A DNA stretch of 64,000 nt from Mesostigma viride (lineage: Eukaryota; Streptophyta; Mesostigmatophyceae; Mesostigmatales; Mesostigmataceae). The translations under genes were made by a program, and so were the position numbers. Below the pieces are notes generated by a model. It was not told the origin of the DNA. It was given only the letters and a program-made list of their open reading frames with translations, and searched no databases. The stretch is taken from contig RPFO01001017.1 in assembly GCA_009746045.1 (NCBI GenBank), positions 62,001 through 126,000 on the forward strand. The letters run 5' to 3'. Positions 27,416 through 64,000 of the stretch are shown in pieces; position 1 is the stretch's first letter, and the number at the start of each line of letters is the position of its first letter.

Positions 27416-30400
27416 TCACCTTAGGCCTGACTGGGTGGAGCAGCTTCGTAGCCAACTCAAATACTGCAATAGGATGAAGATGGGTTGAGCAATGAGCATT
27501 TTCATAACCAAAGCTCTTATTGTAACCGGGCCTATGTGGGTTCAACCACCTCGAACCAACGGCATTATTCATTGTTTTCATGGTGTATCTAACACTCAAG
27601 GGCAGCTTCCTTATGACCCCCTTATCCCTCACCTGCAGGCTGGCCAGCGCGCGCTCGGCGGTCGCCTTGGCCTCCGGGTACCTCGCCAGCTGGCACAGCT
27701 CCAGCAGGTGCTGCGCGGCGCCGTAGCGCAGTATGGTGTCGCGGTTCTCCTCGTTGTGGTAGGCCAGGCACGACAACGCGCGCGCCGCCTTCACCTTGGC
27801 AGCCAGCACCGAGGAGGAGGGGGATGAAGAAGAAGAGGGGAGTGTGCCATTGCTGCTGGTGCCGTCACCGTTCGAGGATCGTCCACCGTGGCTGAGGCGG
27901 AGGACGGAAATGAGGGCGGGGATGCCACCTGTTGGCGGGCGCAGGAGAGTACTTTAAGATGTCAGTATTAACCAAAGAGCATGGAGAGCTACAGGCATCC
28001 AGCAGATGTCACGGTGTCGACACGATGCCCTTCTGTGCCCTACCTGCATGACAATGGAGCCGAATAGCGACCGCAGTAACAACAACTCTTGCCCCCTACT
28101 TGCATGACAAATGAAACTAACCAGCCAACGCACCGACGGCATTTTATCTTCTACCTGCATGCATAATGCCACCAACCAACCGCCGATTCACCATCCTGCC
28201 CCGTACCTACATGATGAATGAAACCTGACAAACACAATGACCTCAAACCATCCTGCCCCCTACCTGCATGATGAATGAAACCTGACAAACACAATGACCT
28301 CAAACCGTCCTGCCCCCTACCTGCATGATGAATGAAACCTGACAAACACAATGACGTCAAACCATCCTGCCCCGTACCTACATGATGAATGAAACCTGAC
28401 AAACACAATGACGTCAAACCATCCTGCCCCGTACCTACATGATGAATGAAACCTGACAAACACAATGACGTCAAACCATCCTGCCCCCTACCTGCATGAT
28501 GAATGAAACCTGACAAACACAATGACGTCAAACCATCCTGCCCCCTACCTGCATGATGAATGAAACCTGACAAACACAATGACGTCAAACCATCCTGCCC
28601 CCTACCTACATGATGAATGAAACCTGACAAACACAATGACGTCAAACCATCCTGCCCCCTACCTACATGATGAATGAAACCTGACAATTCCAATGACGCC
28701 AAGCCCGCCTGCCCTGTTCCTGTGTGGCGGATGGCACCGACCAGCTGTCATGATGCCGACGCCATCATCCCCCCACCCACCTGCACGCCCTCATCCAGCG
28801 CCACGGGCAAGGGCACCGACCCGCCGTGGCGACAACCGTAGTAAGGCAGGGGGATACCGACAGGAGTCAAGCACCCACCTGCGTGCCGGATGGCGGACCG
28901 CGTGCCCTCGTCCAACGCCAGGTTGCCCAGGGCGCCTGCTGCCTTGGCCTGGCCGTCCGGCGTGCCAGAGACCAGCAGCGAGACTAGCGCGGGCACCGCC
29001 CCCGCGCGCGCCAACCGCGGCCGGTGCTTCGCGTCCAGCGCCAGGTTCCACAACACGGCGGCCGCGCTCGGGCGGCACTCGGCGGGCCCCCGCGCCACCA
29101 GCAGCACCAAGTCCTCCACGCAGCGCTGGCGGCGGCAGCAACAGGGTGGAACAAGGATCAGAATTGGCGGCGGCAGCAACGGGGGAGGGAGGGAGGAATT
29201 AGGAGGAACGGGGTGAGTCAGGGTGGCCAAAGGGGGAGGAGCGGGATGGGTGGTGCTGGCAGTGAAGCGGGGTGAAGATGGGGGAGCATGGGGTTGGATA
29301 GGGGTTGGAGCGGGGTGGTCAGGGAAGAAGTGAGTGATGAAGGGGGGGCGATACAGCTGGCCAAGCAAAGGGAGAGGGGGGGGAGGGGGGACATATGCTC
29401 TGATCAAGCAAGCTGTTTCCGGCCCCACCGTCTAGGGCATCTAGTCGCTCTACACGTAAGCCAGCCATAATTTCAATGCACAAGGCTACACATTTCCATC
29501 ACCATTCATATTCATCATCCTGAACGACTCGAACACGCGGACACGATAACGGCAGGCTCGAGCTACCATGGTCCGGATTCTTCCGATTTCTGGCCTGCGC
29601 TGGTTGTCTCCTTGATATGCGGAAGCCAGGCTTGTAGGGGAAGAGGGTGGGAGCCGAGATGGTGTTGGTGGTGGTGGGGGGGCGGAAAAGGGAAGGATGC
29701 AGGTGCCAAAAGAGGACCAGGACGGCACACTCAGCCAATGAGTGACAAGTAGGTGATGGATCTCCAGAACACGATCATGGTGAGCCAGGTGGAGTCTCCA
29801 TCAGTGTGCCCACGAACAGGCTCTATGGACACACTGGATGACAGGACATGGGAACCGACTGCTGTGCACAGTGAGATGGTTGGTGGCATCCGTCACATGC
29901 TGTTATTGGGTACTCAAGTGCCTCTATCCCAGGTCACTGTAGCACTACTGTCCCAGGTCACTCTACCAGTTGTATCCTGACGTCACCTGTAAGCACTTGA
30001 AGGCCCCAGCTCCCTCTATCAGACACTCACATGCGACCCCGCGATGTGCTATCCCAGATCACTCTAGCCCTTCTATTCCAGGTCCCTCTACCAGACAAAC
30101 GAGCGCACGCTCACATGCGACCCCGCGATGTGCTATCCCAGATCACTCTAGCACTTCTATTCCAGGTCCCTCTACCAGACCAACGAGCGCACGCTCACAT
30201 GCGACCCCGCGATGTGCTATCCCAGATCACTCTAGCACTTCTATTCCAGGTCCCTCTACCCGACAAACGAGCGCACGCTCCCATGCGACCCCACAATGTG
30301 CTATCCCAGATCACTCTAGCCCTTCTATTCCAGGTCCCTCCACCAGACAAACGAGCGCACGCTCCCATGCGACCCCGCGATGTGCTATCCCAGATCACTC

Positions 30401-33400
30401 TAGCCCTTCTATTCCAGGTCCCTCCACCAGACCAACGAGCGCACGCTCCCATGCGACCCCACAATGTGCTATCCCAGATCACTCTAGCCCTTCTATTCCA
30501 GGTCCCTCCACCAGACAAACGAGCGCACGCTCCCATGCGACCCCGCGATGTGCTATCCCAGATCACTCTAGCCCTTCTATTCCAGGTCCCTCTACCCGAC
30601 AAACGAGCGCACGCTCACATGCGACCCCGCGATGCGCTATCCCAGATCACTCTAGCACTTCTATTCCAGGTCCCTCTACCGCTGAGACCAACGAGCGCAC
30701 GCTCACATGCGACCCCGCGATGTGCTATCCCAGATCACTCTAGCACTTCTATTCCAGGTCCCTCTACCAGACAAACGAGCGCACGCTCCCATGCGACCCC
30801 GCGATGTGCTATCCCAGATCACTCTAGCCCTTCTATTCCAGGTCCCTCTACCAGACCAACGAGCGCACGCTCCCATGCGACCCCGCGATGTGCTATCCCA
30901 GATCACTCTAGCCCTTCTATTCCAGGTCCCTCCACCAGACCAACGAGCGCACGCTCACATGCGACCCCGCGATGTGCTATCCCAGATCACTCTAGCCCTT
31001 CTATTCCAGGTCCCTCTACCCGACCAACGAGCGCACGCTCCCATGCGACCCCACAATGTGCTATCCCAGATCACTCTAGCACTTCTATTCCAGGTCCCTC
31101 TACCCGACCAACGAGCGCACGCTCACATGCGACCCCGCGATGTGCTATCCCAGATCACTCTAGCCCTTCTATTCCAGGTCCCTCTACCAGACCAACGAGC
31201 GCACGCTCACATGCGACCCCGCGATGCGCTATCCCAGATCACTCTAGCCCTTCTATTCCAGGTCCCTCCACCAGACAAACGAGCGCACGCTCACATGCGA
31301 CCCCACGATGTGCTATCCCAGATCACTCTAGCCCTTCTATTCCAGGTCCCTCCACCAGACCAACGAGCGCACGCTCCCATGCGACCCCACAATGTGCTAT
31401 CCCAGATCACTCTAGCCCTTCTATTCCAGGTCCCTCTACCAGACAAACGAGCGCACGCTCACATGCGACCCCGCGATGTGCTATCCCAGATCACTCTAGC
31501 CCTTCTATTCCAGGTCCCTCCACCAGACAAACGAGCGCACGCTCCCATGCGACCCCGCGATGTGCTATCCCAGATCACTCTAGCCCTTCTATTCCAGGTC
31601 CCTCCACCAGACAAACGAGCGCACGCTCCCATGCGACCCCACAATGTGCTATCCCAGATCACTCTAGCCCTTCTATTCCAGGTCCCTCTACCAGACCAAC
31701 GAGCGCACGCTCACATGCGACCCCGCGATGTGCTATCCCAGATCACTCTAGCCCTTCTATTCCAGGTCCCTCCACCAGACAAACGAGCGCACGCTCACAT
31801 GCGACCCCACAATGTGCTATCCCAGATCACTCTAGCCCTTCTATTCCAGGTCCCTCTACCAGACAAACGAGCGCACGCTCCCATGCGACCCCGCGATGTG
31901 CTATCCCAGATCACTCTAGCCCTTCTATTCCAGGTCCCTCCACCAGACAAACGAGCGCACGCTCACATGCGACCCCGCGATGTGCTATCCCAGATCACTC
32001 TAGCCCTTCTATTCCAGGTCCCTCCACCAGACAAACGAGCGCACGCTCACATGCGACCCCGCGATGTGCTATCCCAGATCACTCTAGCCCTTCTATTCCA
32101 GGTCCCTCTACCCGACAAACGAGCGCACGCTCACATGCGACCCCGCGATGTGCTATCCCAGATCACTCTAGCCCTTCTATTCCAGGTCCCTCTACCAGAC
32201 AAACGAGCGCACGCTCCCATGCGACCCCGCGATGTGCTATCCCAGATCACTCTAGCCCTTCTATTCCAGGTCCCTCTACCAGACCAACGAGCGCACGCTC
32301 CCATGCGACCCCACGATGTGCTATCCCAGATCACTCTAGCCCTTCTATTCCAGGTCCCTCTACCAGACAAACGAGCGCACGCTCCCATGCGACCCCGCGA
32401 TGTGCTATCCCAGATCACTCTAGCACTTCTATTCCAGGTCCCTCCACCGCTGAGACCAACGAGCGCACGCTCACATGCGACCCCACGATGTGCTATCCCA
32501 GATCACTCTAGCCCTTCTATTCCAGGTCCCTCTACCAGACAAACGAGCGCACGCTCCCATGCGACCCCGCGATGTGCTATCCCAGATCACTCTAGCCCTT
32601 CTATTCCAGGTCCCTCCACCAGACAAACGAGCGCACGCTCCCATGCGACCCCGCGATGTGCTATCCCAGATCACTCTAGCACTTCTATTCCAGGTCCCTC
32701 CACCCGACAAACGAGCGCACGCTCCCATGCGACCCCACGTTGTGCTATCCCAGATCACTCTAGCCCTTCTATTCCAGGTCCCTCTACCGCTGAGACCAAC
32801 GAGCGCACGCTCACATGCGACCCCACAATGTGCTATCCCAGATCACTCTAGCCCTTCTATTCCAGGTCCCTCCACCAGACAAACGAGCGCACGCTCACAT
32901 GCGACCCCACGTTGTGCTATCCCAGATCACTCTAGCCCTTCTATTCCAGGTCCCTCTACCGCTGAGACCAACGAGCGCACGCTCCCATGCGACCCCACGA
33001 TGTGCTATCCCAGATCACTCTAGCCCTTCTATTCCAGGTCCCTCCACCAGACAAACGAGCGCACGCTCCCATGCGACCCCACGATGTGCTATCCCAGATC
33101 ACTCTAGCCCTTCTATTCCAGGTCCCTCTACCGCTGAGACAAACGAGCGCACGCTCCCATGCGACCCCGCGATGTGCTATCCCAGATCACTCTAGCCCTT
33201 CTATTCCAGGTCCCTCCACCAGACCAACGAGCGCACGCTCCCATGCGACCCCACGATGCGCTATCCCAGATCACTCTAGCACTTCTATTCCAGGTCCCTC
33301 TACCGCTGAGACCAACGAGCGCACGCTCCCATGCGACCCCACGATGTGCTATCCCAGATCACTCTAGCACTTCTATTCCAGGTCCCTCCACCAGACAAAC

Positions 33401-36400
33401 GAGCGCACGCTCCCATGCGACCCCGCGATGTGCTATCCCAGATCACTCTAGCCCTTCTATTCCAGGTCCCTCCACCAGACAAACGAGCGCACGCTCCCAT
33501 GCGACCCCGCGATGTGCTATCCCAGATCACTCTAGCCCTTCTATTCCAGGTCCCTCCACCCGACAAACGAGCGCACGCTCACATGCGACCCCACGATGTG
33601 CTATCCCAGATCACTCTAGCACTTCTATTCCAGGTCCCTCCACCAGACAAACGAGCGCACGCTCCCATGCGACCCCGCGATGTGCTATCCCAGATCACTC
33701 TAGCCCTTCTATTCCAGGTCCCTCCACCCGACAAACGAGCGCACGCTCACATGCGACCCCGCGATGTGCTATCCCAGATCACTCTAGCACTTCTATTCCA
33801 GGTCCCTCTACCAGACAAACGAGCGCACGCTCACATGCGACCCCGCGATGTGCTATCCCAGATCACTCTAGCACTTCTATTCCAGGTCCCTCTACCCGAC
33901 AAACGAGCGCACGCTCACATGCGACCCCGCGATGCGCACGCGGTTGCCCTCCGACAGCGACAGCGACCACAGCGCGGCGCTGGCGTTGGTCACCGCGTCG
34001 CCCCAGTGGAGGCAGGGGGGCGACGAAGGCAGGTCCGAAGAAGGAGCAGAACCAGGAGGTGGGTAAGGGCTGAGATGACCCGCTGCGCCCTTGCTGCCGC
34101 CGTTGCTTGAACTGTGCTGACTGCTGATGCACGCGCCACACGCGCAGGCGACACTCGCGCCCACCGCCGCCCTCCCGTCCTGGTCCTCCCGCCCACTGGC
34201 AGCATTAGCAACCCCCTGTTTGTGGGCGGTGGAGGCCTCCCTGCGGCAGCTGGCATCCGCGCCAACCGGCCTCAACGGCGTGGGCGTGGGCGAGCACTGT
34301 GGCACGCGGGGGGTGGCCGGTGATGGGCACCCGGGCGTGCGGTGGTGGCGCCGCTCCGTGTCCCCAGGACTGGAACCCGCAACGTCCACAGGGGACCGGT
34401 GCGCCCGTTGCGGCCCTGCCTGGGCACCCCCGCTGGGGCTGGCCGCCCCCCCCCTACCACTGGCCAGTGCCAGGGCGGCCACCCCCTCCCCCAGTAGCGC
34501 CATGAGGGGTTTGATTGCGCCCGCTTGCGCGATGGCGGCCTTGCAGCGCCCGCTCTTGCTGCACAGGTTGGCCAGCACGCGCGCCGCCATGCTGCGCTGA
34601 AACAGGGGCAGGCCTCCGTCGACAGACAAGGAAGGGGCGTTGCCAGATGCACCCGCTGCCCCACCCTGGCCGGCACCCTCAGACCTGAACGAAGGCACAG
34701 CGCCCGTGTGGCCGTGCCCACCGCGCGTGTTGCGGAGGAGAGCCACTAGCGCCGCCGCGCCTCCCGCGTGCACAATGGCCAGCTTGTGACGTTCATCAGT
34801 GGCACCTGCGCCCTCCCCGGATGCGGCCGTGCTGCCATCCGCCCCCATCGTTGCCCTCACACACACGCCATCCCCCTCGGGCTGCTGCAGCAACACCACC
34901 AGCGCATCGGGGGCAGCCGGCAGGCCCTTGGTGGGGGCGGGAGAGGCATCTGGTGTGGGCGCGGCCCCTGGCGTCCCTGGTGCGCCGGCGCCCAGCACCA
35001 GGTCGTCCCAGGACAGGGAGCGCGACGCCGCGGTGACGTCTGCCAGTGTTACCTGGTGGCGGCACGATGCCATGAGGCGCGAGCACAACGCATGACGATG
35101 AGGGCGCGAGAACTGGGTTCAATAGAGCAAAGCACCCACCATGTGTGCAGGCAAGGTTCCACGCAGGAGGGCAGCACCGACAAGTGCGTGCCATTCGGGT
35201 GGCTGTGCATCCTACTAGAGCGGAGTAGATGGGACAACGGATTCCCCCATTTGCCTGTAACGAGCAGCTGCCCTTGCCATGTGGCACCATGTGGCGCAGT
35301 GAATTGGGGGCATGGGCAACAATCAAGGGGCATGAGGGGCATGGGACCGTACGGCTGTAGTTGAACCAAAAGCGCAAGCCAATGCGAGAGAGCCCACGCC
35401 CCCCGTGCCCCCCATGCCACCCCGTACCCCCAGCATGACAGCATGCACGCAAGGGGCCACAGCGAGCATGACAGTGTGGGCCAGACATCGCAGACATCGC
35501 AGCGATGGCATGACACGCAGAATGGCCCACCACCGCGCGCGTTGGGCCCTCTACACAACAGTAGAGCCTCCATATTAAAGCTCACAGGTGAGAACACTGA
35601 AGGGGCCACGCACCACCGCGCGCGTCCGGTCCTCTGCGCACGCGCTGCCCAGCTGCGTCACCAGCGACGTCACGCGCTCCGCTTTCGCCACCGCCACCAA
35701 GCGAGCATGCCACCGCTGGCTCTGCTCCAGCTCGCACCGTGCAGACGCCAGCTCAGCGCGCAGGTCGGTCAGCGCCGCGCCGGCCTGGCGCAGGATGGCG
35801 TGTGCGGGGCCGTGCCAGACGCAAGAGACATGGTGGCGGGGCTGAGTCGACCCCACTTGCGGCCGACCTGGTGCCGGGGCCGTGACGCCGGCACAGCCAC
35901 ATGCCTCGCCTCCAGCATCGCTGTCATTATGATGACCGTGATCAGCATCACCATGGGGGTTCCCATCACCCCCGGGCGTTGATGCCACGGGACGGTTCGT
36001 GCTGCGAGCGGACCCCGGCGTTGCTTGCGGGAACAACTCCTGGCCCCACGACTGCACCACGGTCATCAGCTCCATCTCCCGCTGCTCGGCGCGCTGCCGG
36101 CGGTCCACCTGCACCCGCAGCTCGCCCTCCAGCCGGCCCTTCTCCTCGTGGACCCGCTTGGCCGCCTCCGCCAGCGCGGACACCTCCGCCAGCTGGCCGC
36201 GCAGCTGCAGCCGCTCTTTCTCTAGGAAGCGGATGTAGGCGCGCTGGAACGCCGACGTGGCCTCCAATTTGGTCTGGTCCGCCGATACCTTGTGGCATAG
36301 TGCCGATACCTTGGACAACCGCTTGCTGAAGTCGAATTGGGGCTCTGGGGATGATGGGGCATGTTCGGTGGTATCGTTGAATAGGTCGGAGAAGGGAGCC

Positions 36401-36711
36401 TGAGCGTTGGCGGGTAGGCTGCTGTCAGGAACGGTGAATTGCGGGCCGCGTTTCTTAGACGGCGTGAGGATGGACTTGAGCTTTATCCCCAGAGGCGACC
36501 CGCTCGCTATCTCTGCTTTTATCCGTGACTTCTTCTCAGGCGTCGTCATTTTCCACAGTCCGCTTCCGGCATTGCTTTCATTCGTCACTTCGCTGAGTGC
36601 GTGCCGGTTCTCACGTCCGACGGCCGGGGACTTCGGATCTAGTGACCTGCGTACCTCGTTGACCATGTGAAGACCCCATTTCTCGCTATCAATTCTGCTT
36701 GGACATGACAT
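27416..36711 (-). CDS. Coiled-coil and armadillo-repeat protein (multi-exon)
   Basis: Exons in order: 36711-35614, 35052-33919, 29125-28879, 27928-27633 and tentatively 27463-27416. Phases are 0, 0, 1, 0 and all joins stay open, giving about 940 residues. The N-terminal third is basic and polar (TPEKKSRIKAEIASGSPLG). A coiled coil follows at about residues 130-235 (IRFLEKERLQLRGQLAEVSA, LEGELRVQVDRRQRAEQREM). Exons 2-4 hold armadillo repeats: AIVHAGGAAALVALL, ARVLANLCSK, ASAALWSLSLSEGNRVRIAG, SAAAVLWNLALDAKHRPRLA, GALGNLALDEGTRSAIRHAG joined to GIPALISVL, and ARALSCLAYHNEENRDTILR. Long Pro/Ala/Gly insertions interrupt them. Such proteins are usually binding scaffolds; no partner can be named. 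Exon 1 could belong to a separate gene, and the last 15-codon exon rests only on a good acceptor and phase. Confidence 0.72.
27960..28700 (-). repeat. 57-bp minisatellite seeded by the end of ARM exon 3
   Basis: About nine good copies (28195-28690) and a few degraded ones lie in the intron after exon 28879. On the minus strand each unit carries CATCATGCAG or CATCATGTAG followed by GTAGGGGGCAG. Between the exon and the array are intermediate copies (GCCATCCGCCACACAG near 28725; GATGAGGGCGTGCAG then GTGGGTGG near 28780) that clearly resemble the exon end GCCATCCGGCACGCAG then GTGGGT. Confidence 0.9.
29125..29500 (-). other. 3' part of the large ARM intron, G-rich on the plus strand
   Basis: This is purine-rich GGGGTGG-type sequence next to the exon 3 acceptor. 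On the coding strand it is a long pyrimidine tract, suited to splice-acceptor function. I see no other feature. Confidence 0.4.
29505..29640 (+). mobile_element. Dispersed repeat ending in GTTGTCTCCTTGATAT, copy 2
   Basis: It contains GAACGACTCGAACACGCGGA, GATAACGGCAGGCTCGAGCT, CATGGTCCGGATTCTTCC and TGGCCTGCGCTGGTTGTCTC, matching 10838-10960. It lies inside the large ARM-gene intron. Confidence 0.6.
30020..33940. repeat. 84-bp minisatellite, about 46 copies, containing the ARM exon 2 splice donor
   Basis: The unit on the plus strand runs GATGTGCTATCCCAGATCAC ... GAGCGCACGCTCACATGCGA CCCCGC, 84 bp, with occasional 88-bp units carrying an extra GCTG. The array abuts ARM exon 2. On the gene's strand each unit has CATCGCGGGGTCGCAT then GTGAGC, identical to the last 16 nt of the exon plus its donor. 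Roughly half the units by eye have GGGAGC instead, which destroys the GT. Because 84 is 28 codons, very long but meaningless open frames appear on both strands. Confidence 0.95.
35523..35556 (-). repeat. Echo of ARM exon 1 end
   Basis: Plus-strand CCCACCACCGCGCGCGTTGG here matches CGCACCACCGCGCGCGTCCG at 35608-35628, the true donor region of exon 1. The spacing is about 88 bp into the intron. Confidence 0.65.
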
Positions 36712-39198: not shown

Positions 39199-39420
39199 GG
39201 GTGGAGGGGGGGGGGGGGGTGGCGGGGGGCTACTGCAGCAAGAGCGAAGCTGCCCTGTATGGAGGTTGTTGGGGGGTTGGTCTACTGCAAGGACTTTGCC
39301 GCGACCATCGAGGGGGGCCATGTTCAACATACTCGCAAAACAATCCCCAAAGCCGTAGTTAGGGGAGGCCCGAACGCAAGGAGCTTGCCGCCAGCGCATG
39401 GATGAAGGGGGCCATGGACT
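39199..39420 (+). repeat. Degraded echoes of the LIM gene's last codons in its 3' flank
   Basis: The true end reads TACTGCAAGGAGTGCGCGGC then AACCATGTAG. After a G-run come GGCTACTGCAGCAAGAGCGA (39225), GTCTACTGCAAGGACTTTGC then CGCGACCATCGAGG (39280) and CGCAAGGAGCTTGCCGCCAG (39376). Each is followed by a GGGGG-rich segment like that after the stop. Confidence 0.7.
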
Positions 39421-40440: not shown

Positions 40441-40499
40441 GTCATAAGAGAACAGCAGACAAACACCGAAAAGATAACAGCAGGCTCGAGCTACCATTA

Positions 40500-40895
40500 A
40501 TCAATTAATTAATTAGTTAGGAACATAACTCCGTTGGGGGTACATGTAGCACATATCCCTGAGAAGGGGCATATTCTGATCAGGCACTCCGCAAAGGTGA
40601 AAACCATTTGCGTTCAGTGCCGGGCCATATGAAGCAGAGAAGGGGCATATGGAGCTTTGTACATTCTGGGCTACTTCCTGCAAGGGTAGGGTGTAAACTA
40701 CACCTGCTCTAGGTGCACCAAGTGCACCTGCACCACCATGATGTATCATGCACAGCTTTTCTCGTGTCGGAAAGGCCGGGCATGGGGTGGAAGATCATCA
40801 TGGGTATACAAAGGCTAGGGCATGGCTTCTCAGCAGAGAGTGACTCTCTGCATAGGCAGAGCTTGGCTGAATTCTTAACCCGTGTTTTTTTTAAT
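40500..40895 (-). mobile_element. LINE 3' UTR and tail (-)
   Basis: A TTAA run is followed by GAACATAACTCCGTTGGGGG, GAGAAGGGGCATAT, GGCTACTTCCTGCAAGGGTA and GTGCACCAAGTGCACCTGCA, then GGGGTGGAAGATCATCATGG and TCTCAGCAGAGAGTGACTCT. The order is the same as 22505-22830. The GGGGCATAT block occurs twice, so there is an internal duplication. Confidence 0.75.
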
Positions 40896-51441: not shown

Positions 51442-54400
51442 ATGAACTCTGCAAGGGAAAGAATGCTCTCTGAAGGGAAAGAAATGTCCAGGATGGTTGA
51501 CTCGTCCGAGGCAGATCCTGAGAATCCCACAGAGTTATCCAGATTCAGCACGGATGCGATTCCAACGTCCTCTAATTAGTAAGCACATACACGACGTCTT
51601 ATCACGCACGCCTATATTTGTCGTGATACATTCTGGTTGACTGATTTGTGGTTCCCCACCAGAGGCTCATATTCGATGATAGAGGCATGTCAAAATTGAA
51701 GTTTGCGCTTCCTTCTTTCCATTTGTTGAAATGTGCAAGATACAGTCTTAGGCTTTATGTGTGATAGCCTGAGTTAGGAAGCTGGTCAGACATGACGAGA
51801 AGAAGTGCATCAGCCCCATCGCAGAATGGATGTGTGAAATTGCCCAGCTCTATAGCACGCGTGCAGTACTGGCCTTGATCTATTGCAAGCAACAGAAAAA
51901 TGTTCGTGCTTGACAAGAGGGGCGAATGAGCATGTACTCACAGCTGATCCAAACAAACGCTGGACCAACATAGGGTGTGATGCTGTTGTAATAAAATCAT
52001 GGTACACCAGCATTGGGGTTATAAGGGGTTATAATGTGTCCACAGTATGCCCTTGGAAGCCTCGCTGGGGACTGAATACCACTCACTGGTAGCACCCAGC
52101 CATGTACCACACCCAGTATGGTATCCAATTTTCACAGTCAGGTAGTCCGTAACCGGACCGTGTAGCGGCACACGGGAAGCAATCCAGTGATACAAGTTAG
52201 CAATAGAATCAAGCAACAAGTATGAAAAGGGGGCAGCTGCCTTCTCAATAACTGCCTCTATGTATAGATATACGTTGATGTGCTAATGTGCTGCCCTCGT
52301 GCTGCCACACTCCCCGCTCCGTTTTGTCATATGGCAGCGACAGCTGCCATGTGATGTTCGGATGGGCTGCCCTGCTGCCATCAGGCCCTAGACTTGACAT
52401 TATTATGCCCTGCTCCTGTGCTGCACCCTGCTCCTGTGCACATGCCCTCGCTTTCTGATGAGCCCTGGTCTTGTCATATGCCTGCTTCTGTGGTCCGCCA
52501 GCAACAGCCGTGACGACGCCAGTGACGACGAGGCAACACTGGATGCCATGTGCTTCCAGTACTCCAAGCCGGTGCGTCCCACGTATTTATAATCGTGACA
52601 ATATATATTCGTTGAGAATGATAAATTACGGAGGTGAGATTGGCACGCAACATAAGGAAAACCCCGAAAAGAAGATGAACCCTGAAGAAATTAATAGTAA
52701 TATATATGAATGTATATGTACGGCCTTGTGCAGCTGGCGTGATCCTTGGATGTCCGTGTCAGATTACTTAATTTCTTCAGGGTTCTTCTTCTTTTCGGGG
52801 TTTTCCTTATGTTGCATGCCAATCTCACCTCCGTAATTTATCATTCTCAATGAATATATATGTATACGGTTTGTTTATTTTTACGTGGGTGCCTTTACTC
52901 TGCTGTAAGTAATTATATTTTTAAATATATATACGGATATATACGTACGTACTCATCATTAATGATTGATGAATATGCCGGTAGCTTCTGAGCTTTCTTA
53001 TTTTCTGTGTTCCGCGGAATCTCAGATTTGGGCCGCTAGCGTTTTCACGTTTGTTGCTTTCTGATCTGACGACAATGTACTAGTATATGAATATACTACT
53101 ATGTACTATATACTATATACCATATACTACCATATACTACTATCATTGTATCAAGTCAACATGTGCCTTGATCGGCACAATGGGATGGTACTCCCGAGTC
53201 CTGCCTGCCGGGCAATGTGGGATAACGCACGCCGTGCCCCGCTGCGAGATTCATTCCTAAACATAAAGCTGCAAGTGACACAGCGGCTATGTCACACGCC
53301 TCTGCAACACCGGCATGCTATAGCGACCAGGCACTGCTAGTCCATGCTGGGCGTGCGGTAACGGGCCTGCCCTGGTCTGACATGACAGCTCAGCTCTCCT
53401 TGTGCATGACGGCTCGCCATCTGTTCCAGTAAGTTACTGGTTATGACTCAAATATATCTTTTGTATGGGTGTTGACCGATGCCGGCCCCCCTTTCACGTC
53501 TGTGCACATCATAAATACATATTGTTAGATGACGTCCTCTGTTTGGGCGTCATCCGACCAGCCCGCCTTCGCGTGTGCGTGCCCTTGGCGCGCATGCAGG
53601 CTACCCTGTCGGGTGCAGTGCTAGTCACTTGGTGTCTGTCGATCCTTCCCTGTTGTCCGGTGCTGGCACACATCTTTACTACAGTTGAGGGGTTGTATAC
53701 ACAATCACACGCGCACACACACACACACACACAACAATATACTATACTATACTTTAGTGACCACACAAACAGATGAGCATGTGCATGCTAATGCCAGTTC
53801 CCTCGATTGAATGGTTTACATGACGGGCTGTCTTACCTGCTGTTCGTGGGGTGGACCACATGACGGGTTGTCTCACCTGCTGTTGGTGGGGTGGACCACA
53901 TGACGGGTTGTCTCACCTGCTGTTGGTGGGGTGGACCACGGTGGAACATGACGGGTTGTCTCACATGCTGTTGGTGGGGTGGACCACATGACGGGTTGTC
54001 TCACCTGCTGTTGGTGGGATGGACCACGGTGGAACATGACGGGTTGTCTTACCTGCTGTTGGTGGGATGGACCACGGTGGAACATGACGGGTTGTCTCAC
54101 CTGCTGTTGGTGGGGTGGACCACGGTGGAACATGACGGGTTGTCTCACCTGCTGTTGGTGGGATGGACCACGGTGGAACGTGACGGGTTGTCTCACCTGC
54201 TGTTTGTGGGGTGGACCACGGTGGAACATGACGGGTTGTCTCACCTGCTGTTGGTGGGGTGGACCACGGTGGAACATGACGGGTTGTCTCACCTGCTGTT
54301 GGTGGGGTGGACCACATGACGGGTTGTCTCACCTGCTGTTGGTGGGGTGGACCACGGTGGAACACGACGGGTTGTCTCACCTGCTGTTGGTGGGGTGGAC

Positions 54401-57400
54401 CACGGTGGAACATGACGGGTTGTCTCACCTGCTGTTGGTGGGGTGGACCACGGTGGAACATGACGGGTTGTCTCACCTGCTGTTGGTGGGGTGGACCACG
54501 GTGGAACATGACGGGTTGTCTCACCTGCTGTTGGTGGGGTGGACCACGGTGGACCATGACGGGTTGTCTCACCTGCTGTTGGTGGGGTGGACCACATGAC
54601 GGGTTGTCTCACCTGCTGTTGGTGGGATGGACCACGGTGGAACATGACGGGTTGTCTCACCTGCTGTTGGTGGGGTGGACCACGGTGGAACATGACGGGT
54701 TGTCTCACCTGCTGTTGGTGGGGTGGACCACGGTGGAACATGACGGGTTGTCTCACCTGCTGTTGGTGGGGTGGACCACGGTGGAACATGACGGGTTGTC
54801 TCACCTGCTGTTGGTGGGGTGGACCACGGTGGAACATGACGGGTTGTCTCACCTGCTGTTGGTGGGGTGGACCACGGTGGAACATGACGGGTTGTCTCAC
54901 CTGCTGTTGGTGGGGTGGACCACGGTGGAACATGACGGGTTGTCTCACCTGCTGTTGGTGGGGTGGACCACGGTGGAACATGACGGGTTGTCTCACCTGC
55001 TGTTGGTGGGGTGGACCACGGTGGAACATGACGGGTTGTCTCACCTGCTGTTGGTGGGGTGGACCACGGTGGAACATGACGGGTTGTCTCACCTGCTGTT
55101 GGTGGGGTGGACCACGGTGGAACATGACGGGTTGTCTCACCTGCTGTTGGTGGGGTGGACCACGGTGGAACATGACGGGTTGTCTCACCTGCTGTTGGTG
55201 GGATGGACCACGGTGGAACATGACGGGTTGTCTCACCTGCTGTTGGTGGGGTGGACCACATGACGGGTTGTCTCACCTGCTGTTGGTGGGGTGGACCACG
55301 GTGGAACATGACGGGTTGTCTCACCTGCTGTTGGTGGGGTGGACCACGGTGGAACATGACGGGTTGTCTCACCTGCTGTTGGTGGGGTGGACCACGGTGG
55401 AACACGACGGGTTGTCTCACCTGCTGTTGGTGGGGTGGACCACGGTGGAACACGACGGGTTGTCTCACCTGCTGTTGGTGGGGTGGACCACGGTGGAACA
55501 TGACGGGTTGTCTCACCTGCTGTTGGTGGGGTGGACCACGGTGGAACATGACGGGTTGTCTCACCTGCTGTTGGTGGGGTGGACCACGGTGGAACATGAC
55601 GGGTTGTCTCACCTGCTGTTGGTGGGGTGGACCACGGTGGAACATGACGGGTTGTCTCACCTGCTGTTGGTGGGGTGGACCACGGTGGAACATGACGGGT
55701 TGTCTCACCTGCTGTTGGTGGGGTGGACCACGGTGGAACATGACGGGTTGTCTCACCTGCTGTTGGTGGGGTGGACCACATGACGGGTTGTCTCACCTGC
55801 TGTTGGTGGGGTGGACCACGGTGGAACATGACGGGTTGTCTCACCTGCTGTTGGTGGGGTGGACCACGGTGGAACATGACGGGTTGTCTCACCTGCTGTT
55901 GGTGGGGTGGACCACGGTGGAACATGACGGGTTGTCTCACCTGCTGTTGGTGGGGTGGACCACGGTGGAACATGACGGGTTGTCTCACCTGCTGTTGGTG
56001 GGGTGGACCACGGTGGAACATGACGGGTTGTCTCACCTGCTGTTGGTGGGGTGGACCACGGTGGAACATGACGGGTTGTCTCACCTGCTGTTGGTGGGGT
56101 GGACCACGGTGGAACATGACGGGTTGTCTCACCTGCTGTTGGTGGGGTGGACCACGGTGGAACATGACGGGTTGTCTCACCTGCTGTTGGTGGGGTGGAC
56201 CACGGTGGAACATGACGGGTTGTCTCACCTGCTGTTGGTGGGGTGGACCACGGTGGAACATGACGGGTTGTCTCACCTGCTGTTGGTGGGGTGGACCACA
56301 TGACGGGTTGTCTCACCTGCTGTTGGTGGGGTGGACCACGGTGGAACATGACGGGTTGTCTCACCTGCTGTTGGTGGGGTGGACCACGGTGGAACATGAC
56401 GGGTTGTCTCACCTGCTGTTTGTGGGGTGGACCACGGTGGAACATGACGGGTTGTCTCACCTGCTGTTGGTGGGGTGGACCACGGTGGAACATGACGGGT
56501 TGTCTCACCTGCTGTTGGTGGGGTGGACCACGGTGGAACATGACGGGTTGTCTCACCTGCTGTTGGTGGGGTGGACCACGGTGGAACACGACGGGTTGTC
56601 TCACCTGCTGTTGGTGGGATGGACCACATGACGGGTTGTCTCACCTGCTGTTGGTGGGGTGGACCACGGTGGAACATGACGGGTTGTCTCACCTGCTGTT
56701 GGTGGGGTGGACCACGGTGGAACATGACGGGTTGTCTCACCTGCTGTTGGTGGGGTGGACCACGGTGGAACATGACGGGTTGTCTCACCTGCTGTTGGTG
56801 GGGTGGACCACATGACGGGTTGTCTCACCTGCTGTTGGTGGGGTGGACCACGGTGGAACGTGACGGGTTGTCTCACCTGCTGTTGGTGGGGTGGACCACG
56901 GTGGAACATGACGGGTTGTCTCACCTGCTGCCGTGCGATAGACCACGGTGTGACATGGTTATATGACGGGTTGTCTGACCCAGCATCATGTGGGGACCTT
57001 ATTCTCCTTTCTTGCGTCTGTGTGCGGTCACCGCCGGTGCATGGGAACATCCTTGTGATGTCTGTCGCCCCTGTGACTGGACACTGCTCGCGTTGGCACG
57101 TTGCGGCGGCGGCCAGACTTCCACCATCAGTCTCGGTGACTGGGCCAACATCATCGCGTTCCTCATCATGCTCTGGGGTGGGTGACGCGGGGGGGGGCGG
57201 GGATGGGGTAGGGGATGGGTTAGGGAATGGGGTGGGTGATAAGGCGGGTGATGGGGTAGAGGGTGGCGTAGGGGATGGGGTAGGGGATGGGGTAGGGGAT
57301 GGGGTAGGGGATGGGCTGGGGGAAGGGGTAGGGGATGGGTTATGGAATGGGGTCAGTGATGGGGTGAGTGATGAGGGTGAATGACGGACAGGTTCTGTGA

Positions 57401-60400
57401 GGAAGGGCTGTGGAGAGGGCCACGTGCTTGGGTCCAGTGGATGATCGCCGGTAGTGCGGACGAGCGTATGGAATGATCAGGCATCCCACGGGGTGCGTGC
57501 TGCTCCACTAGCCCCCCATGCTGCGTGCCATACATCCATGAGAGGGGGTGCCCTGTGCCATACCGTGAATCATCTGGCCATACGCGTCACGCCACGACAC
57601 GCCATGCCGCTAGCATGTCATGCTCCGTACTGCACCTTTTTCAAGTGCGCGAGTAACGATTCCTTGCCCCTGCAACGGCTGCTTCTGGCATGGCGGCGCT
57701 ATCGAGGGCATGGCGGCCAGAGTCAGGCCTCGGGGGAGCAGTGGGTACTGGGCGATCATACCCATGTGTGGATGCCTCACCTGCGGCAGGCCTTGCGCAC
57801 TTAACACGCACTGCTGTTACATGGAGATCCTGGTGAGGGGTACTGAGTACCCAGTTGTAGGGGTACCGGACACCTGTTCGAAAGGGACACTTGGCGATTT
57901 GTGGATGTCTCACCTACCCGATGGCACTGCCCACCCCCCATGCCCCCAACCTGGCTCCCTGCAGGTATCTACCTGAGGATGCACTCCACCGATGAGGAGT
58001 GGGCGGGATGTATCCTAAAACTGTCACCTGTCACCTGTCACCTGCCGCTTTTCGCCTGCCGCATGCCTGCCCATCATTATCTACGCCAGTCCTTCCCTAC
58101 GCCATTCCTTGTTGCGGGCACCCTTGCTTTGCCCACCCTTCCTCAGCCAGGTCACACGGATGAAAGCTATTCCTTAACGCAGTATGACATGGCCATTCGG
58201 GCACCCTACCGCGGAGGTAAATGGCCATCTGTGGGCTGATTCCCTGCATGGGGCCAACCGGACATGGGATGGTTCATGGGGCGGTAATGGCGCGCAGGCC
58301 TGATGTGCCGCCTTATTCTGGCGTTCGGGCTGTTTGGCTTTGCGGGCGGCATCACCAACTGGATTGCGGTGAAAATGCTTTTTGACAAGGTGAGGCGTGA
58401 GTGGATATGCTCATGCGGTGTGGTGTGGGGGCCCAGTCATGTGATGCTACCGCTTGCTCTGAAGGGAGATCACTTTTTACGACCAGTAGCCCTAGTAGTA
58501 CTAGTACTGCCAATGGGTCATCATCAAGATGCTCCTTGAGACAAGGTGGGCAGCCATTGGCCAGTTTGGTGACTCGGCAGCGTGGTGTTAGGGAAGACCT
58601 TACAGTAGTACTGACTACTGCTGCTGTACCGTTTTCAAGGTGCACTTTGACAGCGTGACTTTGACAGTGCGATATGCCAGGCTACCAACGCTGCAGGTTG
58701 TTGTTTACCCCAGGACAGACTGTCTGGGCATCCGCGGTCTGCCGTATTTGTCGCCTTGGCATGTCGTCCCTATCGTCATTGTGGCAGGCATCGGTGCACA
58801 CGCCAATGGGTTGCCTGCTTGTTGTGTGTTGTCCCACCGCTCTTGTAGCGCTCTTATGCTGATGCTGGTGCTGCACCGCATGTTGACCTGGTTGCGGGCT
58901 GCTTGTCTATTCAAACTTAATGAATGCTCAGTGTATACTGGGGCTACTGGCAACTGCGCTTCCTTCTTGCTCTACCGTACCCCCTGCTCTGCTTATCATC
59001 GAACCCCTTGCAACTGCGCTTCCTTCTTGCTCTACCGTACGCTCTGCGTCTACCACAGTGTGCATGCGCGTTCGTGTGTGCTTTGACTTCTAAATTATGT
59101 GCCCGTGCTTTGCGGGCGTTATACCTCCGTGAGTGTGCGTGCGTGTGTGTATGTCTGTGCATGCGTGTGTGTCTGTGTGCGTGTGTTTGTGTGTGTTTAT
59201 GTCTGTGTCTGTGTGCATGTTTCTGTGTGCGCGTTTCTGTGAGCGCCACACCTGTGTGTGTGTGCGTGCGGTGGCCGCCAGGTCCCTGGGCTGTACGGCA
59301 GCGGCGTCATCCCTGACAGGTTTCGGGAGATCCGCGCCACCATCAAGGACATGCTGATGGACACATGTGAGTAACGTGGCGATCATGAGCATAAGGAATT
59401 AGGGGAGGGGGGGGACATGTTGATGGACACATGTGTGCATGCTAGCTGAGCATCCTAGTACTACTAGTACTGCTATATAATCATTCAGATGCGCACCAGT
59501 GTGTATCGTTGCCACAGCATTACAAATTAGGCCAGTACACGCTGATAGGCGCATGTGGGTGTGCAAGACCGTTTATCGTGGTCCATGATGACAGGGAGGG
59601 AGGGAGTAAAGGACCCAGGGATGGAGTAACGGACAGCGGGAGAAGGATGACGAATACAATCCTGGTCTGTGCTTCACACGGCAACGACAAACTGCTGCCA
59701 TGCTGCATGCCTATCACAGCAGCCGTGTGCGACCAAGGGGCACTACCTGCAGGAGAAGATAACAGCACGTTGAGACGGCAGATAGGGGTGTCAAGACGGC
59801 AGTATGGGTGTGAACACGGCAGATAGGGGTGTCAAGGCAGCAGATAGGGGTGTGGAGACGGCAGATAAGTATGTCGAGACGGCATATAGGAGCGTCCAGG
59901 CGGCAGATAGGAGTGTTGAGACGCAGATAGGGTTGTTGCGACTCCGACGATGGTAACGCGACATGCTTGCGGAGCATCGCAGCTAGGCGGTAGCTATCAT
60001 AGTAGTATCTGACCTGTCTTTTTCTAGCAAACAGCAGGGCATCCGCTCCGCACGTGAACTCTGCCACCAGCGTTGGGGTTGGTCAAAAGTACTAGCGACG
60101 ATCAAGCACAGCGCAGGCCGTTGCATAGTCGTTGTGTAGGCCAGTTGCTAACAGGAGTCACATGGTCATCTCCCAATTTATGTAGCTTTGTGGAAATGTA
60201 ACCGTCCTGTCCTATCCTATCCTGAGCATTTTGCTGCATTCCAGTTGTAGCTGGGTTCTCAACGGGTTGAGGGAAACATGTGGGTCGGCAGGCATGCACA
60301 ACCTGCGCGACTGTCGTGAGGGAAACACGTGGATCGAGGCATGCACAGCCTGCGCGACTGTCGTGAGGGAAACACGTGGATCGAGGCATGCACAACCTGC

Positions 60401-63400
60401 GCGACTGTCGTGAGGGAAACACGTGGGTCGGCAGGCATGCACAACCTGCGCCACTGTCGTGAGGGAAACACGTGGGTCGGCAGGCATGCACAACCTGCGC
60501 GACTGTCTTGAGGGAAACACGTGGATCGAGGCATGCACAACCTGCGCGACTGTCGTGAGGGAAACACGTGGATCGAGGCATGCACAACCTGCGCGACTGT
60601 CGTGAGGGAAACACGTGGGTCGGCAGGCATGCACAACCTGCGCGACTGTCGTGAGGGAAACACGTGGATCGAGGCATGCACAACCTGCGCGACTGTCGTG
60701 AGGGAAACACGTGGGTCGGCAGGCATGCACAACCTGCGCGACTGTCGTGAGGGAAACACGTGGGTCGGCAGGCATGCACAACCTGCGCGACTGTCTTGAG
60801 GGAAACACGTGGATCGAGGCATGCACAACCTGCGCGACTGTCTTGAGGGAAACACGTGGGTCGGCAGGCATGCACAACCTGCGCGACTGTCGTGAGGGAA
60901 ACATGTGGGTCGGCAGGTGTGCACCATACTACGCTACGCTATTGTCGTATGTGCACGTGCTACTCCTGTTATATCTTGCAATGCCAATCCAATATGCATG
61001 TTTGACCTGGGTTGATTTTTCACTTTTTGTGTGCTGCCTTCGTTGCTTTGCGACAACATCGTTGCCCTCCTGGCTTTGCACATGCTTCTGGCTGTACTCT
61101 CGTGTCAGGCAAGTCGTTGCTCATAGTCTGCCCGCGTAATGCTGGTGCCCATCGGCCACTTCCCTAATACTGCCAACTTCACCTGCCTGGGTCTCCGTTT
61201 CCTTGCCCCACCTCTGCTTTCCGTTGTGGACACTTGGGCAACCTGTCGTCCGCCGCGCCAGTCTTCAACCCGGACTTCATGCGGCACCACATGAGCCGCA
61301 AGATCGACAAGCTGTCTGACTCCTTGGACCTCAGTACGTGTGCTCTAGTCATAGATGGCAGATTCCTTGCGCATGTGACATCATTCCCTGTGCACGTGAC
61401 ATCTTGAGCTGATGTGGTTGGCAAATTTTGTGTAATTGGGAATTCGTCATCGCCCTGTCGTGTGTATGTGTGCGTGTGTGTGTGCTCCACTGGTGGCACG
61501 GCTTGTGCCTTGTATGCGTATGGTGTAATGAGAGTAGTTCCTGCGCCGTCAAAGACACGAGCAAGTGTGGCATCAGGGACGGCCAGGACTGCCCAATCAC
61601 AAGAAAATAAATAATGTCTTGCTAAATTAGTACCCTCCCTTGGAATCCCCCAGTGATTATCGCCAGGTATGTTCCTTCCAACTGTTGATGTGCCTTGTGG
61701 CTTGTTACTTGTTTGTTTTGTGCCTATTCTTAGCATTCAAGTAAATATGAATTACTATTACTTGATAGCCGTGTCGCTATCGATCACAGTAAAGTCACGT
61801 CCCACTTTTTCCTGACCAAATGGGCAATGACGCCATCGCTCCACACTCTCGCTAAGCGAACACCGCATTAAGGCACGCATAGCAAGCTATGTATGAGATG
61901 CTATTTCGCCAAGAAGTTTTCTGTGCTCTCCCTGCTGGACCCCATCCCTACCACACCTTAACATTCCTGGCAATAAAAATTCTAGCTGTAAACCATTACA
62001 AATATTAAGTTTCAAGGTTTACACCCTACCTATGTTATGGTGCGGTAACTGCCCTTTTTGGCATTTTCATATGGAGGAGTAGTGTGAATAAACCAGCTAA
62101 ACTTATTCCCCCTCCTCCCCTCCCCTCCCCCCTTTTCCCCCTTTTGTGTGTGGCCCCACCACCACCTTGCGACCACACCTCGCGACCACCACGCTGCGAC
62201 CACCACCGCCCTCAACATTTGTGCTGGTAGCCGACAAGATCCGTGCCATGATGGAGAGCGATGACGTGGACAAGCTGTTGGACGCCAAACTGTTCGAGAT
62301 GGGCACGCGGCCTGAAGGTATAGTGACTGCTATAGTGACTTATGCATGCCGAGCTATTTGGTAAACGATGGCTTGGACAAGCACCCACTCACAAGCGGCT
62401 GGACGCAAAGCTGTGCGAGAGGCGCACATGGCAGAAGCGCGAGCCCATAAGCATGCAGGCAGCGATGTGGCAGATATTAGGCTGGTCCGCGCATAAGACA
62501 TGTAATAAGATGGAATAAGAATAGCAGACAGCATCCATGAAGTGCTTTATTCACGAGATACTATCAACTATAATTGTTGTTTATTATCATACTAATTAAT
62601 CATTGTTCTATACCAATTGACACGGGCAGGGCACAAACCTCGTTGCGGAAAATATCTGGAAATGATATTAGTTATTACATCATACCAGCTGTCATGGTAA
62701 TTACATGGTACCAATAGTAGTAGTGATTACGTGGTTCCAATAGTAGTAGTGATTACGTGGTTCAAATAGTAATAGTGATTACGTGGTTCCAATAGTAGTA
62801 GTGATTGCGTGGTACCGATGGCAACTGTGATGCTGGAAGAGTGCACCATGCAGCGCAGGCAGTACAAGGTGCTCCACAGAAGAGTCTTGTCCACAGCCCT
62901 GATAGGCACTTGAAACCAAACTGGCGTTTGCTCTGTACAAACTGTCGTTGCTACCATTCTCAGGCTGTCCTGATGCCACCCTGGCGCGCGTGTGTCTGGC
63001 TGACCCCAGTCTTCTGAGTTCGTGGGCTTATTGCTGGCATCCCCTTTTTTTTCTATTGTTTCTTCTCGCGTTGCCCATGCCTGCGATGTTTCCCAGTGCT
63101 TTCTTGCCGTATTCCCTCGGGCATATCCTAGGGTTGACTCCATGTACTAGGTAATGCACTCGGATCATGCGTCCATGAACCTAGCGCAGAAGTGTACTGC
63201 GCTACAGTAGCGTAAAACCTTATCGCTACTATACAGGGGTGATGGCGTGTCCATAGGTCCATGAGGTCCTAACCGGCCTGTTCATTCTGCCGCAACATCT
63301 TTCTACCTACATGTCTTGTTTGTCAAAACCCTACTTCATAACCCTGGGTGCCGACCCAGGCAAGGTATTTGGGACGGCGTCCGCCTGTGTCCCCCTGCCT

Positions 63401-63790
63401 CGTGTGACCGCCCACGCATGATGCTGGGGATGGCATCTGCCTCAATCCCTTTTTCGCATAAAACGACGTCCGTCGATCCTGTGGTACCCCGCCCAGGCGT
63501 GATGTCAGCGATGATGTCGTCCCACATCCCAATCTCGTGGGAACTGGCAGTACCTGTTTGCCGGAGCACTGCCTGCCATTCCTACCCGGTGGTTCAGCGC
63601 CCAGGCATGACGTTCGTCATGATGGGCCGCACCCCCTGTTCGTGCCTCACCCTCTGTTCTCGCCGCACCCCCTCTTCCTGTTGTCTTCTGCCCAGGCATG
63701 ATGTTTGCGATGATGGGCCTGACGCCTGACAAGCTCAAGCCGATCGTCAAGCCCTTCTTCCTGTCGATGAGCAAGGATGTGGGCCCGCTG
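51442..63790 (+). CDS. Membrane protein resembling DUF445, 5' eight exons (continues past the window)
   Basis: Exons: 51442-51578, 52502-52571, 57117-57177, 58298-58389, 59282-59366, 61262-61333, 62231-62317 and 63696-63790. Phases 2,0,1,0,1,1,1,0 all match, so the splice model is strong although each exon is short. The N-terminus is acidic and polar (MVDSSEADPENP). Exons 3 and 4 encode two hydrophobic segments, WANIIAFLIMLWG and LILAFGLFGFAGGITNWIAV. The GGITNWIAVKMLFDK stretch followed by GSGVIPDRFREIRATIKDM resembles the start of DUF445 (YheB-type) proteins, where a G..TNWIAIKMLF helix precedes a GLIP..R....I motif. Later exons are helical and charged (RKIDKLSDSLDL, DDVDKLLDAKLFEMG, LTPDKLKPIVKPFF). 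The biochemical role of the family is unknown. Exon 1 and exon 2 are the least certain. Confidence 0.65.
52600..52862. mobile_element. Foldback element with about 93-bp inverted arms
   Basis: The left arm (52601-52692) and right arm (52771-52860) are near-perfect inverted copies (TTCGTTGAGAATGATAAATT... against its complement) around a spacer of about 78 bp. The right arm plus half the spacer equals the 150-bp unit at 16245-16395. It lies 30 bp after exon 2 of the DUF445-like gene, inside the intron. Confidence 0.85.
53838..56935. repeat. 48-bp minisatellite, about 64 units, with 40-bp variants
   Basis: The unit is GACGGGTTGTCTCACCTGCT, GTTGGTGGGGTGGACCACGG, TGGAACAT. A 40-bp variant lacking CGGTGGAA occurs at intervals, including two successive 520-bp blocks (55258-55778-56298). 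The 48-bp unit is 16 codons and lacks stops in several frames on both strands, creating the long RQPVMFHRGPPHQQQV and GLSHLLLVGWTTVEHD frames. They are not genes. The plus strand has no AG dinucleotide from about 53798 to 56940. Each unit on the minus strand has CAGCAG then GTGAGA. Confidence 0.95.
57178..57400 (+). repeat. GATGGGGTAGGG repeats starting at the donor of exon 3
   Basis: The exon end CTCTGGG and donor GTGGGTGA lead directly into variable 12-18-bp units (GATGGGGTAGGG, AATGGGGTGGGTGAT). Many units restate GGGGTGGGTGA, the exon-donor junction. Confidence 0.8.
58521..58550 (+). repeat. Echo of exon 4 end (DUF445-like gene)
   Basis: The exon ends AAAATGCTTTTTGACAAG then GTGAGG. The echo reads AAGATGCTCCTTGAGACAAG then GTGGGC, with an intact GT. 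Confidence 0.6.
59100..59262 (+). repeat. GTGTCT/GTGTGC simple-sequence tract
   Basis: This TG-rich tract lies directly before the acceptor of exon 5 of the DUF445-like gene. Confidence 0.8.
59413..59440 (+). repeat. Echo of exon 5 end (DUF445-like gene)
   Basis: The exon ends GACATGCTGATGGACACAT then GTGAGT. The echo, 63 bp on, reads GACATGTTGATGGACACAT then GTGTGC. Confidence 0.85.
59752..59945 (+). repeat. About 21-bp tandem repeat, 8-9 degraded copies
   Basis: The unit is GACGGCAGATAGGGGTGTCA with many substitutions. It lies in the intron after exon 5. Confidence 0.85.
60255..60915 (+). repeat. 47/49-bp minisatellite, about 14 copies
   Basis: Units start GTGAGGGAAACACGTGG, then ATCGAGGCATGC or GTCGGCAGGCATGC, then ACAACCTGCGCGACTGTC. 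The two length forms alternate irregularly. It lies in the intron between exons 5 and 6. Each unit begins with a donor-like GTGAGG, and similarity to the exon 5 donor flank is suggestive only. Confidence 0.93.
61334..62230 (+). other. Intron between exons 6 and 7; no further gene
   Basis: A TG-rich stretch and an AT-rich middle are present. A 13-nt piece at about 61652-61664 has both an AG before and GTATGT after it, but its phase does not fit the flanking exons. Confidence 0.4.
62392..62440 (+). repeat. Echo of exon 7 end (DUF445-like gene)
   Basis: The exon reads GACAAGCTGTTGGACGCCAA then ACTGTTCGAGATGGGCACGC. The echo reads CACAAGCGGCTGGACGCAAA then GCTGTGCGAGAGGCGCACAT, but its donor has changed from GTATAG to CGCGAG. 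Confidence 0.8.
62693..62818 (+). repeat. About 30-bp tandem repeat, 4-5 copies
   Basis: The unit reads GTGATTACGTGGTTCCAATA then GTAGTA. It lies in the intron before exon 8. Confidence 0.9.
63345..63695 (+). repeat. Four upstream echoes of exon 8 acceptor (DUF445-like gene)
   Basis: The exon starts CCCAG then GCATGATGTTTGCGATGATG at 63696. Copies upstream read CCCAG GCATGACGTTCGTCATGATG (about 63605), CCCAG GCGTGATGTCAGCGATGATG (about 63497), CCCAC GCATGATGCTGGGGATGGCA (about 63416) and CCCAG GCAAGGTATTTGGGACGGCG (about 63360). Three keep the AG. Confidence 0.85.
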
Positions 63791-64000
63791 GTACGCCAGT
63801 AAACATGTCTTCACCCACCGTGGTACTAGTACCACTATGCCTATGAGAGCAAGGACGGGGGGCCCTTTGTAGATCCCCCCTTTTTCCTGTTCATGAGCAA
63901 GCGCGTGCGTCCGATGGTAGGTGGACATGGCTCCCTCGCCATCCCTCCAGGTACTTGTACATCGATAGGGGCAAGCATGTGGGGCCTTTGGTAGGTGTAT
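63791..64000 (+). repeat. Three downstream echoes of exon 8 end, running to the window edge
   Basis: The exon ends TTCTTCCTGTCGATGAGCAA then GGATGTGGGCCCGCTG and GTACGC. Echoes read GAGAGCAAGGACGGGGGGCC then CTTTGTAGAT (63846), TTTTTCCTGTTCATGAGCAA then GCGCGTGCGTCCGATG and GTAGGT (63890), and AGGGGCAAGCATGTGGGGCC then TTTG and GTAGGT (63967). Confidence 0.85.

Follow-up and report, generated by a model that had tools for sequence, protein, structure and literature searches.

Tandem echoes at a minority of exon borders in the streptophyte alga Mesostigma viride resemble the mirage minisatellites of amphioxus

How does an exon edge come to be repeated within the intron beside it? In amphioxus, minisatellite-like tandem duplications across intron-exon boundaries, termed mirages, are described in Adh3, the globins BflGb6 and BflGb9, TnC and PGBD5; in the excerpts of the two reports used here, they occur at 5' and 3' borders, have units of 10-160 bp, and carry AG/GT signals in many of those units (PMC3087553, PMC3902484). 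The nearest plant case, likewise as excerpted, is a tandem duplication in potato across an intron-exon boundary, from which a new intron arose (PMC4974935). Here we analyze border echoes, copies of exon borders lying in the adjoining introns, in a 64,000-nucleotide stretch of Mesostigma viride DNA (the window; GenBank assembly GCA_009746045.1, contig RPFO01001017.1, positions 62,001 to 126,000), chiefly in four genes: an ARM-repeat gene, CDK11, a LIM gene and a DUF445 gene. The repeats are of a known kind, mirages, now found in a streptophyte alga. The original mirage paper reportedly concerned Adh, and a human study is said to have dealt with internal tandem repeats that alter gene structure. 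An earlier note on this DNA knew of no description of the process as a general mode of intron growth; the amphioxus reports cited above, as excerpted, already describe duplications of this kind. Among the matches listed from the open-licence literature (subscription papers were not covered), none reports mirage-type arrays from any alga.

How closely do the Mesostigma repeats follow those of amphioxus? As in the mirages, the repeat unit contains the exon-intron boundary, as copies mapped at junctions reveal; echoes are found at both border types (28/130 borders over all sets pooled, 17/66 donors and 11/64 acceptors); and copies often keep GT, in 20 of the 45 recognized units of the ARM exon 2 array (GTGAGC; the other 25 read GGGAGC) and in 24 of 35 other donor copies mapped in the window and validation loci (hand count). 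Unlike the mirages, they reside in a streptophyte alga, not a cephalochordate, many copies are decayed, and one array reaches 46 units. The Mesostigma survey covers 130 borders with controls. For the mirages, others have shown length polymorphism and undisturbed splicing, according to the same excerpts, whereas the Mesostigma repeats are known from the sequence of one assembly. As in the potato and Drosophila cases, tandem duplication across or within exons supplies splice sites, but those cases, so far as excerpted, concern new introns (PMC4974935, PMC2891723), whereas in Mesostigma existing introns lengthen and copies remain on their own side. With ordinary intronic minisatellites, common in the window, the echoes share tandem arrays of diverged units; they differ in that one member of the repeat is a conserved exon edge.

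The evidence comes from a comparison of 40 exonic nucleotides at each border with no more than 500 nt of the neighboring intron, microsatellites and low complexity being masked and the 18-nt ARM exon 5 excluded from border counts. At a score of at least 80, 13 of 40 borders in the four genes (10/21 donors, 3/19 acceptors) have a direct-orientation echo, versus 0/40 for the reverse complement, 12/1102 for introns of other genes, and 5/321 for 40-mers from exon interiors; at the stricter threshold of at least 90 the corresponding figures are 10/40, 0/40, 2/1102 and 0/321. Across nine combinations of score scheme and query length, 10-13 of 40 borders are echoed, the reverse complement always gives 0, and interiors give 1-5 of 314-332; a 39-border set, one border fewer, again contains 13 echoed borders, and dropping any single gene leaves 29-39% of borders echoed. 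Thus diverged direct copies of exon borders do occur in the adjoining introns, as the earlier note had claimed, and they persist after the masking of low complexity. At the passing borders the true junction is separated from its nearest copy by 66-159 nt, which agrees with the 60-190 bp it had given. Its assertion that almost every exon is affected fails: only 11 of 24 exons in the window genes have at least one echoed border (hand count), and of 90 borders outside those genes only 15 are echoed. Border echoes are real and far above chance, and they are restricted to a minority of exon borders. Two weak single cases, the donors of CDK11 exon 1 and DUF445 exon 2, may be chance matches.

The most extensive echo is found in the ARM-repeat gene (minus strand; exons 1 and 2 at 36711-35614 and 35052-33919, spanning 33919..36711 with GT/AG borders, and further exons at 29125-28879, 27928-27633 and 26517-26500). 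The exon 2 donor belongs to an array of 46 copies of an 84-bp unit detected by TRF (30026..33934), whose units contain the end of exon 2 together with its donor, GGGTCGCAT followed directly by GTGAGC; six mapped copies stand at multiples of 84 nt. The intron measures 4.8 kb, and the array takes up about 3.9 kb of it. The exon 1 donor (junction 35614) has an echo at 35520..35557, at a distance of 83, that retains GTG/GTG (a slash marks the junction) and scores 114, a value exceeding the 99th percentile for swapped introns. The exon 3 donor (junction 28879) has an echo at 28762-28695, within 28190..28762, that scores 85 with the exon-only query and 92 with the border-inclusive query, the latter marginally below the 99th percentile. 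This echo merges into a 57-bp x 9 array at 28190-28714, and matches the 57-mer unit with a score of 140 against a maximum of 94 in 500 shuffles. The ARM protein has a Pfam Arm domain (2.1e-14) and is identical (100%) over the match to eukprot jgi/Mesvir1 Mv07790; we placed the exon 1 donor at 35614 because the public protein carries one extra residue at the exon 1/2 junction.

CDK11 (minus strand) is modeled by alignment with human CDK11B as exons 1-6 at 50454-49387, 48853-48674, 48046-47889, 47259-46981, 46244-46109 and 45609-45302, and the human protein aligns through the kinase-domain junctions; exon 7 (43952-43868) is predicted from frame and GT/AG. Two of its donors lie in arrays detected by TRF: that of exon 5 (junction 46109) in a 78-bp x 3.3 array at 45871..46128, with echoes at 78, 156 and 234 nt, and that of exon 3 (junction 47889) in an 81-bp x 2.4 array at 47724..47913, with echoes at 78 and 159 nt, the first of which keeps CAG/GTGAGC. 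The exon 6 donor (junction 45302) has two echoes within 44965..45215, at 129 and 325 nt (exon-only score 132), and the weak echo of the exon 1 donor (junction 49387; 49289..49335) is found with the border-inclusive query only (score 99). Acceptors are echoed upstream of their exons, here at exon 4 (junction 47259; CCGCAG/CAT at 47308..47358, exon-only score 110, with additional copies at 257 and 350 nt) and exon 3 (junction 48046; TTGCAG/GCC at 48111..48155, exon-only score 98). Eight start or stop-codon ends were also tried, including two alternative starts of one gene and an ARM stop query that overlaps intron; of these, the CDK11 stop end alone (stop 43868) reached p<0.01, with repeats in the 3' flank at 43711..43921 (score 128, p 0.007) that form local repeat clusters, and one alternative start gave p 0.04. 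Of the 3' flank echoes reported earlier, that of LIM falls within the last intron of the public protein model, and that of CDK11 within an intron in our own model of the gene. Two microsatellites, masked in the tests, lie close to CDK11 exons: (GTGG)n abuts the exon 2 donor (48561-48671), and (CCCA)38 stops 18 nt ahead of exon 5 (46262-46413).

On the plus strand, the LIM gene (exons 38017-38157, 38293-39194 and 39515-39566) yields a spliced translation exactly equal to eukprot jgi/Mesvir1 Mv07791 (100% identity, whole query), and its exon 2 donor (junction 39194) is echoed 114 nt away at 39269..39317 (exon-only score 101). The DUF445 gene (plus strand, 51493..63790) comprises exons 1-5 at 51493-51578, 52502-52571, 57117-57177, 57965-58009 and 58298-58389, and exons 6-9 at 59282-59366, 61262-61333, 62231-62317 and 63696-63790; its translation resembles the start of Mesvir1 Mv07793 (compared by eye), and homologue alignments span its later junctions. 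Donor echoes are found at exon 6 (junction 59366; 59415..59439, 66 nt, exon-only score 81, with border 98), exon 8 (junction 62317; 62400..62437, score 109, GT lost) and exon 9 (junction 63790; ATG/GTAGGT at 63878..63921, 126 nt, exon-only score 114, with a second copy at 200 nt). The exon 9 acceptor (junction 63696) is also echoed upstream, GCCCAG/GCA lying at 63599..63638 (exon-only score 93) with additional copies at 199 and 280 nt. Pfam places ARM and LIM above cut-off and the DUF445 fragment (30.6) slightly below its cut-off of 33.8. For LIM, ARM and DUF445 the public models of the proteins use the true junctions; for CDK11 no such model was encountered.

The compared copies have diverged (identity mostly 65-90%), and their alignments extend over about 25-80 columns. 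Because many of these alignments cross the junction, the splice site was duplicated in register. Outside the ARM exon 2 array, about two thirds of the donor copies that could be mapped keep GT. Exon-to-echo differences are spread evenly over codon positions 1, 2 and 3 (36/196, 40/197 and 44/198), indicating that the echoes decay free of coding constraint. Two further patterns were considered and rejected. Spacing in multiples of three, spotted post hoc at 9 of 11 nearest window donor copies (9 of 12 when the doubtful exon 2 donor of DUF445 is counted), is judged to be chance because all the extensions listed have an in-frame stop and the kinase genes described below give only 3/8. Similarly, the donor bias of the window (p 0.046) is absent from those kinases (5/21 donors versus 6/21 acceptors) and from all sets together (p 0.29).

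Is the phenomenon peculiar to this window? Using the kinase domain of CDK11 as the query, we obtained 101 matches and chose 13 loci from them, namely those with several neighboring matches plus four strong single matches; ten of them gave 21 introns on other contigs, and three (L015, L022 and L043) gave none. At a score of at least 80, 11/42 of these borders are echoed, spread over 5/10 loci, versus 0/42 for the reverse complement, 21/1536 for swapped introns, and 3/223 for interiors. For example, the echo in L047 intron 2 is 38/40 identical, and registered series of five copies are found at the L039 intron 2 donor and the L044 intron 4 acceptor. A second validation set of 11 loci and 20 introns comprised actin-family, eIF4A-like and other kinase genes, leaving out same-gene repeats (L050, L051, L060, L062, L064 and L065) and loci without a modeled intron; here 4/40 borders are echoed, versus 0/40, 11/2412 and 3/309, respectively. 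In the validation models, chains below 40 bits were dropped and introns with doubtful borders (L040 intron 1 and L053 intron 1) were retained. Pooled with the 8 borders of a TauD-like gene in the window, none of them echoed, the validation sets give 15/90 borders (~17%), versus 0/90 for the reverse complement; the two sets of loci together give 32/3948 for swapped introns and 6/532 for interiors. Some distant copies are missed by these counts, since a 64/70 identical border copy of the L044 intron 2 donor (G000:C1106) lies 642 nt into the intron, outside the 500-nt range. Echo frequency differs between genes, and the phenomenon spans several gene families and more than one locus. The earlier note's proposal of genome-wide intron building by border duplications is borne out to the extent that kinase, actin-related and eIF4A-like genes elsewhere are affected; it does not extend beyond a minority of borders.

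We propose that the echoes are mirage-type minisatellites, produced by tandem duplications that span a border whose true copy is frozen by selection, and we assign this reading a probability of roughly 0.8. Short tandem duplications with units of about 30-160 bp would arise in Mesostigma viride non-coding DNA, presumably by slippage or unequal exchange. Where a unit straddles a border, its duplication would produce the exon end and intron start twice, with the mirror image at acceptors. If splicing stays at the exon-proximal site, the protein would be unchanged and the intron longer by one unit; selection would freeze the true copy, while the outer copies, probably neutral, would decay unconstrained or sometimes amplify, the largest array having 46 units. 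Minisatellite-type duplication combined with selection on the true border is the simplest mechanism because such duplications are common and the decay is even. To judge from the sequence, then, border-spanning duplications probably lengthen introns while one true border is kept and candidate decoy splice sites arise, much as the earlier note envisaged.

Do duplications nevertheless favor borders? Since arrays dominate positions, we replaced the position-wise comparison with non-coding DNA by a count of the outermost copies of tandem duplications, which make up 4.4% of non-coding query sides tested in the window, at many spacings, 83/1502 in the kinase loci, and 87/1334 in the second set. In a simulation with uniform duplications, exons frozen save for third positions, and intron DNA loss equal to gain, the neutral border rate was 1.05-1.6x the interior outermost-copy rate (1.0-2.1x in a smaller first run of 120 replicates). 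Several results weigh against our reading. With arrays included, 1014/4044 (25%) non-coding query sides score at least 80, and 962/1731 intronic positions score on one side or both, so that random intron segments, the comparison proposed in the earlier note, equal or exceed borders by position because large arrays fill introns, while borders exceed them by outermost-copy count. The border rate is above the neutral simulation both in the window (~7.5x, 13/40 versus 4.4%) and in validation (~2.8x, 15/90 versus 170/2836; P = 0.004-0.024 against a 1.3-1.6x null, 0.12 at 2x). Taken by itself, the second validation set (4/40 versus 6.5% outermost copies) does not exceed the neutral expectation, and in the TauD-like gene 0/8 candidate borders, set by GT/AG and open frames only, are echoed. 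Exon borders could thus be true hotspots at which duplications preferentially start or persist, for example because the frozen exon copy and its echoes exchange sequence recurrently, or because spare splice sites are selected for. The window rate speaks for this (P ~4e-6 to 3e-3 for 13/39 at assumed rates of 0.077-0.15), as does, more weakly, the validation excess; the second validation set and the TauD-like gene speak against it, one stop-codon end is likewise echoed, and echo splice sites are not specially kept, GT in 24/35 being about what is expected at such identity (an estimate, not computed). Since the pattern itself was the reason for picking the finding, the window figure is probably too high; window and validation rates differ at p = 0.06. 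A modest border excess beyond neutral duplication is uncertain, and we consider hotspots unlikely. We are slightly more doubtful still of the broader claim that borders are favored for the birth or retention of duplications beyond the frozen-copy effect, with mirages as a chief way in which introns grow and a lasting supply of usable alternative splice sites.

The remaining explanations fare worse. Under the model reportedly put forward by Rogers and Hellsten, an intron is born when part of an exon that bears AGGT is duplicated in tandem. That process shares with ours its tandem duplication and its copies of splice sites, as far as the excerpted reports go (PMC4974935, PMC2891723), but intron birth predicts the upstream exon end beside the acceptor and the downstream exon start beside the donor, and this was not found: cross-side scores are at most 66 over 18 introns, barring one short intron (320 nt) with overlapping windows. 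Because echoes stay on their own intron side, birth by exon duplication is disfavored, and we regard it as very improbable. Chance, low complexity or assembly artefact is scarcely credible and, for the whole echo set, refuted: the window is rich in low-complexity sequence and arrays, but the masked controls are low under all nine settings, the pattern is replicated on other contigs, and misassembly would not yield copies as diverged as these. We attach equally little weight to insertions of a transposable or introner type, under which the echoes would be either target-site duplications or shared element sequence; reverse-transcriptase ORFs are present in the window, but each echo matches its own exon, as the swapped introns attest, and echoes extend over tens of aligned columns, often repeated in register.

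Other features of the window and its genome were recorded. A LINE-like ORF on the minus strand (1662-5303) includes an endonuclease and a reverse transcriptase domain, and a second reverse-transcriptase region, also on the minus strand, lies at 19279-20903; an inverted-repeat MITE-like element is found at 52630-52850, with a relative at 16260-16380 (by eye). The probable TauD-like dioxygenase gene occupies 9438-15870 (plus strand), Pfam TauD matching one ORF and the remaining exons being guessed. DUF445 intron 2 contains a 48-bp x 64 array (53898-56930) with CAG/GTGAGAC on the antisense strand in most units (by eye); when this and four other arrays were compared with exons, a comparison without a null, no source exon stood out. 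Further minisatellites with 37-69 bp units lie at 11186-11891, 8236-9159 and 12216-12547. The genome containing the window totals 439.9 Mb. The published Mesostigma viride assembly, in the excerpt used, is 441.8 Mb, with a mean intron of 1,142 bp and repeats making up 30.1% of intron space (PMC6947507).

Finally, a repeat type that we found described only in lancelets extends to a streptophyte alga that branched off early and has long introns, and supplies a mechanism by which introns may lengthen from their own exon edges. Because each exon holds a frozen reference for its echoes, intron growth becomes datable.

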